From Nitrosophilus kaiyonis (lineage in GTDB: Bacteria; Campylobacterota; Campylobacteria; Campylobacterales; Nitratiruptoraceae), in NCBI RefSeq assembly GCF_027943725.1, contig NZ_AP025696.1, positions 1,155,501 to 1,219,500 of the forward strand: 64,000 nt of DNA, read 5' to 3'. Every line of letters begins with the position of its first letter. Position 1 is the first letter of the stretch. Under the pieces are notes generated by a model. The model searched no databases. It was not told the DNA's origin and saw only the letters and a program-made list of their open reading frames with translations. Made by a program: the position numbers and the translations under genes. Below are positions 22,016 through 61,831 of the stretch, piece by piece.

Positions 22016-22177
22016 GGTCATTAGTTATTAGTTTAGTGATAGTTATAGTGGAATAGGGGTATAGCGGGATAGTGGAATAGAAGGATAGATGTCAAGGAGG
22101 TAAGGGGATAAGGGGGTAAGGGATAAGGAAAACGACCAATTCCCAATGACTAATGACTAATGTCCAATGACTATTAT
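22016..22177 (+). repeat. Composite repeat between tolA-like gene and tolB
   Basis: This holds an inverted array first (TTGGTCATTAGTTATTAG), then a purine tract with TAGTGGAATAGGGG-T-ATAGCGGGATAG (22046-22072) and several GGTAAGGGGATAAG-like units. The ACGACCAATTCC junction and six in-phase heptads follow (22136-22177: CCAATTC, CCAATGA, CTAATGA, CTAATGT, CCAATGA, CTATTAT). It interrupts the otherwise conserved tolQRA-tolB order. Confidence 0.88.
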
Positions 22178-28844: not shown

Positions 28845-28980
28845 GTGAGCGAGGGCAAAGCGAAGCTTTAAGACAATAATTGTTTGTTGTCTGTGCCTGA
28901 AGCGAAAGCTGAGAGTATATGCGAAGCCGAAATTCAAGGAATTTCGTGTCTGAGCATACGAACAGCTGGTTTACCTTGAA
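28845..28980 (+). ncRNA. Candidate structured RNA/hairpin element, copy 1
   Basis: Nested helices can be drawn on the plus strand. AAAGC-GAA-GCTTT is at 28857-28869, and a variable hairpin AGACAA/TTGTCT at 28871-28892. A GAAA-capped AGC/GCT at 28901-28910 is an alternative pairing. The closing helix AGCTG/CAGCT pairs 28907-28911 with 28963-28967. Inside it TATGC/GCATA pairs 28918-28922 with 28954-28958. Innermost is CGAAATT/AATTTCG with a CAAGG loop (28928-28946). CCTTG at 28974-28978 could pair with the loop. Copy 2 keeps each helix with compensatory changes. Whether it acts as RNA or as a DNA repeat is unknown. Confidence 0.55.
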
Positions 28981-29036
28981 GAAAATCAAATGAGCGAAGA
29001 GAATGAAGATTTTCGGTTAAATTTGGTGAGTTAGAG

Positions 29037-29229
29037 AGTGAGAAAGTTAGAAAGTGGAATAGCGGGATAGGAGATAATGTGATAATGGGGTAAGATGATA
29101 AGCTGTGAAGCTGTGAAGCCGGATAGGTTGAAGGTAGAAGGCTGAAGAATAAGGAAGTAAAGCGGCCAATTCCTGATTCCCAATTCCCAATGTCTAATGA
29201 CCAATGACTAATGTCTAATTTCTAATTTG
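29037..29229 (+). repeat. Purine tract plus nine-unit heptad array
   Basis: The purine-rich part includes AAGTGGAATAGCGGGATAGG (29052-29071). It passes through AAAGCGGCCAATTCC into nine contiguous in-phase heptads at 29166-29228: CCAATTC, CTGATTC, CCAATTC, CCAATGT, CTAATGA, CCAATGA, CTAATGT, CTAATTT, CTAATTT. The array ends two bases before the TATAAT of the next gene. Confidence 0.92.
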
Positions 29230-29230
29230 T

Positions 29231-29236
29231 TATAAT
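29231..29236 (+). promoter_or_regulatory. Extended -10 TATAAT abutting the FliK-like start codon
   Basis: TTTGTTATAAT has both the TGn extension and a perfect TATAAT. It lies directly after the heptad array and five bases before the ATG at 29242. No ribosome binding site is visible, so a transcript from here would be leaderless or nearly so. Confidence 0.5.
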
Positions 29237-40639: not shown

Positions 40640-41101
40640 TTGGTAAAAATTAATATTTATGCAATCTCAAAAAAAGATGAAAAATCTTATCAAAATATAA
40701 TAGATGATTTTATCAAGATGTCAAAAAAATATGCTCAAATTAATATTGAAAATATTTTCAATAAAAAAATAAACCAAGCACAATGCAAAGATGAAAAAAG
40801 TGCTAAAAAAAGTTATACTCAAAGTTTTGAACCTTTTTTAAAAAAGGGATTTAATATTGTTTTAGATCCAAGAGGAAAAGAAATTGACAGTTATGAATTT
40901 GCAAATATTTTAAAAAATTTAGATAGTGTTAATTTTTTTATTGGTGGGGCTTACGGTTTTGAGGAAGATTTTATAAAAAGAAGCGATTTATGTTTAAGCT
41001 TAAGCCGTTTAACTATGAGCCATAAAATTGCTAAAATTGTACTGTTAGAACAGATTTATCGAGCTTTTACAATTATTCATTCACATCCATATCATAAATG
41101 A
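40640..41101 (+). CDS. rlmH: 23S rRNA (pseudouridine1915-N3)-methyltransferase RlmH
   Basis: A 153-aa SPOUT-class methyltransferase acting on helix 69 of 23S rRNA. The knotted C-terminal half has LDPRGKEIDSYEFA (about 74-87), FFIGGAYGFEEDF (SAM-binding) and LSLSRLTMSHKIAKIVLLEQIYRAF (in part LSRLTMSHKIAKIVLLEQ). It ends HPYHK, the usual end of RlmH. The start is TTG with TAGGAA seven bases upstream. Its stop codon is the first base of the second structured element. Confidence 0.93.
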   Translation: MVKINIYAISKKDEKSYQNIIDDFIKMSKKYAQINIENIFNKKINQAQCKDEKSAKKSYTQSFEPFLKKGFNIVLDPRGKEIDSYEFANILKNLDSVNFFIGGAYGFEEDFIKRSDLCLSLSRLTMSHKIAKIVLLEQIYRAFTIIHSHPYHK

Positions 41102-41233
41102 GCGAGGGCAAAGCGAAGCTTTGAGCAAGCAAACTGCTTTGCTTGCGTCCCGAAGCGAAAGCCTTGAGTATATGTGAGTCTGAAAAACAAGGTTTTTCGT
41201 GACGAACATACGAGAGGCTGGTTTACCTTAAAG
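41099..41233 (+). ncRNA. Candidate structured RNA/hairpin element, copy 2
   Basis: This begins at the rlmH stop codon. AAAGC-GAA-GCTTT is at 41110-41122, and a 9-bp hairpin GCAAGCAAA/TTTGCTTGC at 41125-41146 replaces the unrelated hairpin of copy 1. The closing helix AGCCT/AGGCT pairs 41160-41164 with 41215-41219. TATGT/ACATA pairs 41171-41175 with 41206-41210. Innermost is GAAAAA/TTTTTC with a CAAGG loop (41182-41198). CTGGTTTACCTT follows, as in copy 1. Helix sequence differs between the copies but pairing is kept. Confidence 0.55.
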
Positions 41234-41442
41234 GAAACGAAGTTGAGCAAAGCGAAACAAGTTTGAGGTTAGATTTGAGGTTGAAGGCTGAAGGGAGAAG
41301 AATGAAGGGAAGAAAGGGTGAAGCGACCAATTCCAAATTTCAAATTACCAATGACTAATGACCAATGACTAATGTCAAATATCTAATCTCAACTTTTTTT
41401 TAAGAAATTTTATGATAAAGTACTAAAAAAACGGAGTTTAGA
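41102..41442 (+). other. Long intergenic region with structured element and repeats
   Basis: This 341-base gap holds the second structured element, a purine-rich GAAG-repeat tract (about 41241-41326) and nine heptads (41327-41389). A short AT-rich promoter-like stretch (ATTTTATGATAAAGT near 41407-41421) comes before the next gene. No open reading frame here looks real. Confidence 0.8.
41241..41390 (+). repeat. Purine tract plus nine-unit heptad array
   Basis: The purine tract has GGTTGAAGGCTGAAGGGAGAAG-type units, also seen near 29130-29155 and 61722-61750. The junction GAAGCGACCAATTCC leads to nine contiguous in-phase units at 41327-41389: CCAATTC, CAAATTT, CAAATTA, CCAATGA, CTAATGA, CCAATGA, CTAATGT, CAAATAT, CTAATCT. 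Confidence 0.92.
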
Positions 41443-61676: not shown

Positions 61677-61831
61677 GAAGTAATATCAATAGATAAGTGG
61701 AATATAGATATAGCGGGATAGGCTGAATGGAGAAGGATGAAGGGAAGAAGCAGTGAAAAGGCCAATTACTAATTCCAAATTACCAATGACCAATGACTAA
61801 TGACCAATAACTAATGTCCAATGTCTAATGT
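61677..61831 (+). repeat. Purine tract plus ten-unit heptad array
   Basis: The purine tract includes AAGTGGAATATAGATATAGCGGGATAGG (ATAGCGGGATAG at 61710-61721). The AAAAGGCCAATTA junction leads into ten contiguous in-phase units at 61762-61831: CCAATTA, CTAATTC, CAAATTA, CCAATGA twice, CTAATGA, CCAATAA, CTAATGT, CCAATGT, CTAATGT. It ends at the glyA terminator, in the gap between the glyA stop and the SPOR gene start. Confidence 0.93.

Follow-up and report, generated by a model that had tools for sequence, protein, structure and literature searches.

Structured non-coding repeats shared by Nitrosophilus kaiyonis and Patescibacteria: a candidate family of mobile elements with a target-complementary strand

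A 64,000-nucleotide stretch of the Nitrosophilus kaiyonis genome (contig NZ_AP025696.1, positions 1,155,501–1,219,500; the window) carries two copies of a structured repeat that recurs in this genome, in related Campylobacterota and in Patescibacteria. The chances are, in our judgment, about even that the repeat represents a new family of small (∼95–200 nt), non-coding, non-autonomous mobile elements in which the folded strand pairs with the insertion target. The copies are dispersed, present at some loci and absent from the equivalent loci of relatives, and their helices, numbered P1–P7, covary. In Patescibacteria they sit behind tRNA genes, the 3′ strand of P1 is complementary to the T-arm of that tRNA and the 3′ strand of P2 to its acceptor, and a copy of the tRNA 3′ end follows downstream. 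No open reading frame (ORF) carried by the element was seen, and the clusters examined contained no autonomous form encoding an ORF of its own. We regard the family as new because no known system with its anatomy was found in the resources searched; open-access literature text yielded no description of it.

The initial annotation had placed the two copies at 28845–28980 and 41099–41233 and had described shared anchors and helices that keep pairing while their bases change. Both copies, the anchors and every named helix pair are present, the helices as exact reverse complements; the boundaries had to be revised to 28846–29023 and 41099–41275, and the helix list was incomplete, lacking P1, the P2 hairpin and the conserved 3′ hairpin P7. 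The parts are given below with their matches to R1, a covariance model built on 21 copies from the window's genome only (E, expectation value), and with their place in A7, a family alignment of 55 distinct rows, 51 base pairs and 2719 cells.

28846–29023, + strand: copy 1, full length, 178 nt; R1 match of 207 bits, E 1.1e-57; lineage-specific insertion relative to genomes G001 and G004
28853–28898, + strand: P1 of copy 1, GGGC (28853–28856) with GCCT (28895–28898), enclosing P2 and P3; helix 2 of A7, 4/4 pairs changed on both sides
28857–28869, + strand: P2 hairpin of copy 1, AAAGC-GAA-GCTTT; helix 3 of A7, 96.8% paired
28871–28892, + strand: P3 hairpin of copy 1, AGACAATAA / TTGTTGTCT; helix 4 of A7, 98.4% paired
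28907–28967, + strand: P4 of copy 1, AGCTG (28907–28911) with CAGCT (28963–28967), P5 within and the conserved GA/GA between
28929–28945, + strand: P6 hairpin of copy 1, GAAATT-CAAGG-AATTTC
28981–29014, + strand: P7 hairpin of copy 1, GAAAATC/GATTTTC; helix 8 of A7
29024–29232, + strand: low-complexity tail of degenerate GTGAGTTAG.../CCAATGACTAATG repeats, absent together with copy 1 from G001 and G004
41099–41275, + strand: copy 2, full length, 177 nt; R1 match of 171.7 bits
41125–41146, + strand: P3 hairpin of copy 2, GCAAGCAAA-CTGC-TTTGCTTGC, loop conserved
41160–41219, + strand: P4 of copy 2, AGCCT (41160–41164) with AGGCT (41215–41219), enclosing P5 and P6

P1, which reads GGGC/GCCT in copy 1 and GGGTA/TACCC in other copies, corresponds in copy 1 to the target:guide helix found in the tRNA-linked copies described below. 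According to the ORF list, the ORF at 40640–41101 ends at the first TGA of copy 2, which serves as its stop codon.

Taken singly, the two copies fold better on the + strand than dinucleotide-shuffled sequences (z = −2.8 and −3.8). Because two copies alone are thin evidence, 34 copies from the same genome and the 55 distinct family rows were needed to confirm covariation, and these bore out the compensatory changes proposed in the initial annotation. The conserved architecture consists of P1 around P2 and the P3 hairpin, then P4, GA/GA and P5 (with P6), then the 3′ hairpin; the P3 loop is CTGC in most copies. In A7, which like alignment A6 was fitted to covariance models and whose pair counts are therefore biased towards structure, 95.1% of cells were paired and 41/51 pairs had changed on both sides, with a covariation score of 0.469 compared with 0.167 ± 0.007 after shuffling (0/500 shuffles equally good), and pairing fell to 33–44% in a control with slid partners. 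In A2, a structure-free MAFFT alignment, 13/42 predicted pairs had already changed on both sides. P3 was paired at 98–99%, single positions showing as many as four or five different pair types. In the cross-phylum comparison 19/20 pairs had changed on both sides (score 0.767 versus 0.203) and P3 was 99% paired, all 9/9 of its pairs having changed on both sides. Changes within the genome of the window fall mostly into two main haplotypes per helix, mixed among copies, so that the own-genome copies by themselves give too high a count of independent events, a problem to which the cross-genome alignments are less subject. Overall, the covariation in the family-wide and cross-phylum alignments strongly supports selection on the folded strand. 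Stem mismatches on the + strand comprised 91 G.T and 41 A.C, an excess that favours a single folded + strand and does not separate RNA from DNA.

Haplotypes of P3, P4–P6 and P7 are variously combined in the copies L003, L005, L007, L014, L019 and L024 of the window's genome (G000), which suggests that modules are exchanged among copies. The CAAGG loop of P6 can pair with CCTTG (28974–28978 in copy 1), a pairing compensated in some copies (CTAGG/CCTAG) and broken in others, and a pseudoknot here is suggestive only. An early idea that GCGAAAGC forms a GNRA tetraloop held true only of the window's family and was set aside. P2 resembles an intrinsic terminator, a hairpin accompanied by a run of T, at L032/L060, L048, L062, L043 and in many Patescibacteria copies, and a terminator-like P2 lies downstream of tsf in G007.

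The element is multi-copy throughout the family and patchy across Campylobacterota. A 20-base anchor, allowing ≤3 mismatches, occurs at 25 places in the 1.77-Mb genome of the window (the reversed pattern at 0); 24 of these lie in element copies and one (L021) in a coding-like stretch. R1 gave 34 matches in this genome and recovered homologs in 13/22 family genomes, together with weaker matches in Campylobacter-type genomes that correspond to a ∼95-nt core, one of them in Campylobacter concisus (L137). Copies in the window's genome are intergenic, and 18/24 are co-oriented with the upstream gene, often abutting its stop codon; L004, L009, L012 and L013 sit between divergent genes.

Evidence of mobility comes from comparing loci between genomes. 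At the copy 1 locus, the same two flanking genes are separated by ∼20 bases in G001 and ∼2 in G004 compared with ∼400 in the window, and the element is missing from this locus in all 21 other family genomes; copy 1 is a lineage-specific insertion. The upstream gene, judged by its sequence motifs, probably encodes an ATP-binding, TtcA/TilS-like protein. Empty sites were also found in Campylobacter, where the same gene pair encloses no element in related species. In two genera, copies are inserted in CRISPR repeats or arrays (L031 (1501–1952), L039, L059 and L112/L028); G008 and G012 each have, 2–3 kb from the CRISPR-inserted copy and beside Cas1-like sequence, an ORF containing a reverse-transcriptase domain. 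The 5′ junction reads ATGA/GTGA in most copies. At L088 and L089, near 1440–1700, a second copy of the start of the downstream gene (tail-sheath-like and hsdS-like), with slight or synonymous differences, lies upstream of the element, as if insertion had regenerated the gene start.

The reach of the family into Patescibacteria emerged from a core-pattern search of the GTDB species set, for which we estimate ∼19 chance hits. Matches in Patescibacteria (Nomura-, Taylor-, Yonath-, Kaiserbacteria and others) stood among such hits and carry further shared features; those in Firmicutes, Bacteroidota and others look like chance, the other features being absent. A second model, R2, detected 1–18 copies each in 11 Patescibacteria genomes, and R1 independently recovered 14 Patescibacteria copies (E 8.5e-8 to 2.5e-3). 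A further sample gave matches in 18/287 Patescibacteria genomes (18 including the reference genome G416). No element match was found in phage and plasmid collections, and four matches to viral contigs, obtained in the first of four scans only, were chance-like.

In these hosts the element is tied to tRNA genes. A same-strand tRNA lies upstream of 24/25 hits in the new genomes, the tRNAs being those for a dozen amino acids; the distance is mostly 12–60 nt, and several farther copies form the second unit in a tandem array. Between P3 and P4 the copies carry a strand complementary to the T-arm in their own tRNA, typically over 9–14 contiguous bases: in a swap test, the own T-arm scored 9.18 compared with 6.53 with flanks permuted (maximum of 10,000 permutations, 7.64), and in the new genome set 9.56 compared with 6.42 (permutation maximum 7.8). 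Similarly, the stretch ahead of P3 holds sequence complementary to the 3′ strand of the acceptor (6.77 versus 3.84; permutation maximum 4.72), and the tRNA 3′ end is directly repeated downstream of the copy (11.28 versus 5.53; permutation maximum 7.15). The downstream repeats often begin in the T-loop (CGA...) and extend to the tRNA 3′ end. Such duplication on the far side, typical of tyrosine recombinases that integrate at tRNAs, was found with Patescibacteria copies only and is degenerate in many. Free RNA folding at three tRNA-linked loci gave a three-way junction of P1 (T-arm:guide), P2 (acceptor:complement) and P3, and in one genome several adjacent tRNA genes are each trailed by units with a strand matching their own T-arm.

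We propose that the P1/P2 strand would serve as a target-recognition (guide) strand for integration beside a complementary site, probably through a trans-acting recombinase. Most tRNAs share the T-loop consensus TTCGANTCC, which would account for the choice of tRNAs as landing sites in Patescibacteria; the window's lineage has this architecture with a fixed, element-borne P1 (GAGCGAGGGC), and its copies land mostly at gene ends. Several points weigh against this proposal. The target-specific strand must be newly acquired at each new tRNA, and the proposal gives no account of how. No long direct repeats occur at the Campylobacterota sites read, including the Campylobacter empty-site comparison. 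No mobilizing protein was found in searches for Y1_Tnp and RVT_1, tyrosine recombinases and IS110 not having been searched: Y1_Tnp is missing from G000, G002, G003, G416 and G419, the genome of the window and other copy-rich ones included, and RVT_1 (reverse transcriptase) from G000 (the window's genome), G002, G007, G415, G417, G419 and G420, so mobilization by either enzyme in this genome was rejected. Finally, a terminator-like hairpin separates the tRNA from P3 in many of the tRNA-linked copies, and the guide might therefore rarely be on the tRNA transcript. The wider claim, that these are protein-free RNA- or single-strand-guided mobile elements with a strand complementary to the landing site and the T-arm as a general target in at least Campylobacterota and Patescibacteria, we put forward only tentatively, as somewhat improbable on present data.

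The downstream tRNA repeats lend themselves to a different explanation, unlikely on balance but the strongest of the alternatives, in which the element is a folded single-stranded DNA att site. Here the tRNA 3′ end and the complement in the element would form a hairpin equivalent to a double-stranded tRNA att site; integration of the mini-element at the T-loop would fall to a tyrosine recombinase of the host or of a phage, and the tRNA 3′ end repeated downstream would be attR. Repeats running from the T-loop to the tRNA 3′ end are as expected of such integration, tandem units occur behind one tRNA and tandem copies also in the window's family, and hairpin–tRNA complementarity would become a recombinase requirement. 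However, the conserved P4–P5 core with its GA/GA motif is left unaccounted for, as are the use of many different tRNAs within one genome and those Campylobacterota copies that lie at gene ends and lack such repeats; the 91:41 ratio of G.T to A.C does not distinguish RNA from DNA. Slightly less probable still is a cis-acting RNA, a tRNA trailer or 3′-untranslated region that, following read-through, would capture the T-arm and acceptor of the cognate tRNA and regulate maturation or stability. Almost without exception, close Patescibacteria copies lie on the strand of the tRNA, the 18/24 co-oriented copies of the window's genome point the same way, and the loops are RNA-like and the helices covary; yet patchy distribution, high copy number, copies between divergent genes (the four loci named above) and CRISPR-array insertions fit it poorly, and the terminator-like hairpins before the guide strand weigh against a purely co-transcribed form. 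A plain palindromic DNA repeat of the repetitive extragenic palindrome (REP) or miniature inverted-repeat transposable element type, its structure serving a transposase only, is improbable: the initial annotation had named such a mobile repeat as a competing possibility, and small, dispersed, intergenic copies, a nested second repeat in some of them and Y1_Tnp proteins in some Patescibacteria hosts agree with the mobile part, but eight covarying helices with conserved internal loops are no plain palindrome and Y1 transposase is absent from the window's genome and from the copy-rich G416 and G419.

Set against known systems, a mobile element with a target-pairing strand has partial parallels. 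The initial annotation had named no RNA family, and in Rfam 15 only tRNAs beside elements reach the gathering score, the element itself being unmatched. HEARO, the IscB omega RNA (RF02033), is likewise structured and non-coding, with many ORF-less copies and an insertion-site preference, and ATGA/GTGA is what we take to be the HEARO insertion site. However, RF02033 did not match the element even at E 10 and had no match in this genome, the guide-like strand of the element is internal and paired to the flank rather than being the flank itself, and the IscB/IsrB RRXRR domain (PF14239) was found in 0/22 family genomes, control genomes likewise giving 0. Weak sub-threshold RF02033 hits in relatives lie away from the element and were discounted as other IS605-like sequences (GTCAACTACC...); these loci (L101–L106) form a separate multi-copy structured element, possibly IS605-type ends. 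Integron attC and CTX phage attP share with the element a long imperfect hairpin able to recreate a recombination site, tandem units and a far-side repeat of the tRNA 3′ end, but not the extra conserved core or the many different tRNA targets. IS608 recognizes its target through base pairing with an internal strand. This principle and a subterminal hairpin are common to IS200/IS605 Y1-transposon ends, REP and REP-associated tyrosine transposase systems and the element, although the window's genome lacks Y1_Tnp, the target pairing of the element is far longer and its structure is different. IS110 bridge RNAs are ∼170–180 nt long. Like the element by description, the bridge RNA is structured with target-complementary strands (PMC11208160); in contrast to IS110, the element is ORF-less. 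Group II introns, retrons and diversity-generating retroelements would be expected to come with a reverse transcriptase, which was not found in the copy-rich genomes searched.

Other repeats accompany the copies. At L008, L010 and L011 a second structured repeat, related to the element (GGAGC-GTTAAG-hairpin with AACTGCTT loop-TA-GCTCC), is nested inside P3 in antisense; it is solitary in other families and was also seen at L031, L096, L098 and L097. Degenerate repeats of the CCAATGACTAATG type number 29 between 99 and 61830 of the window compared with 1.8 expected, in about ten clusters (e.g. 22143–22176, 29187–29213, 41348–41374 and 61762–61830), two of which trail element copies and the rest do not. 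Similar low-complexity GGTAAGGTGGTAAG tracts lie ahead of many element copies.

The covariance model allows repeats that are otherwise left blank to be annotated. Were the folded att site correct, the family would be a variant on an already known type of system. If, in contrast, our preferred reading is true, then in two distant phyla a compact, non-coding element uses base pairing to read a host tRNA, and it would represent a novel type of guided mobile element or of tRNA-linked RNA.
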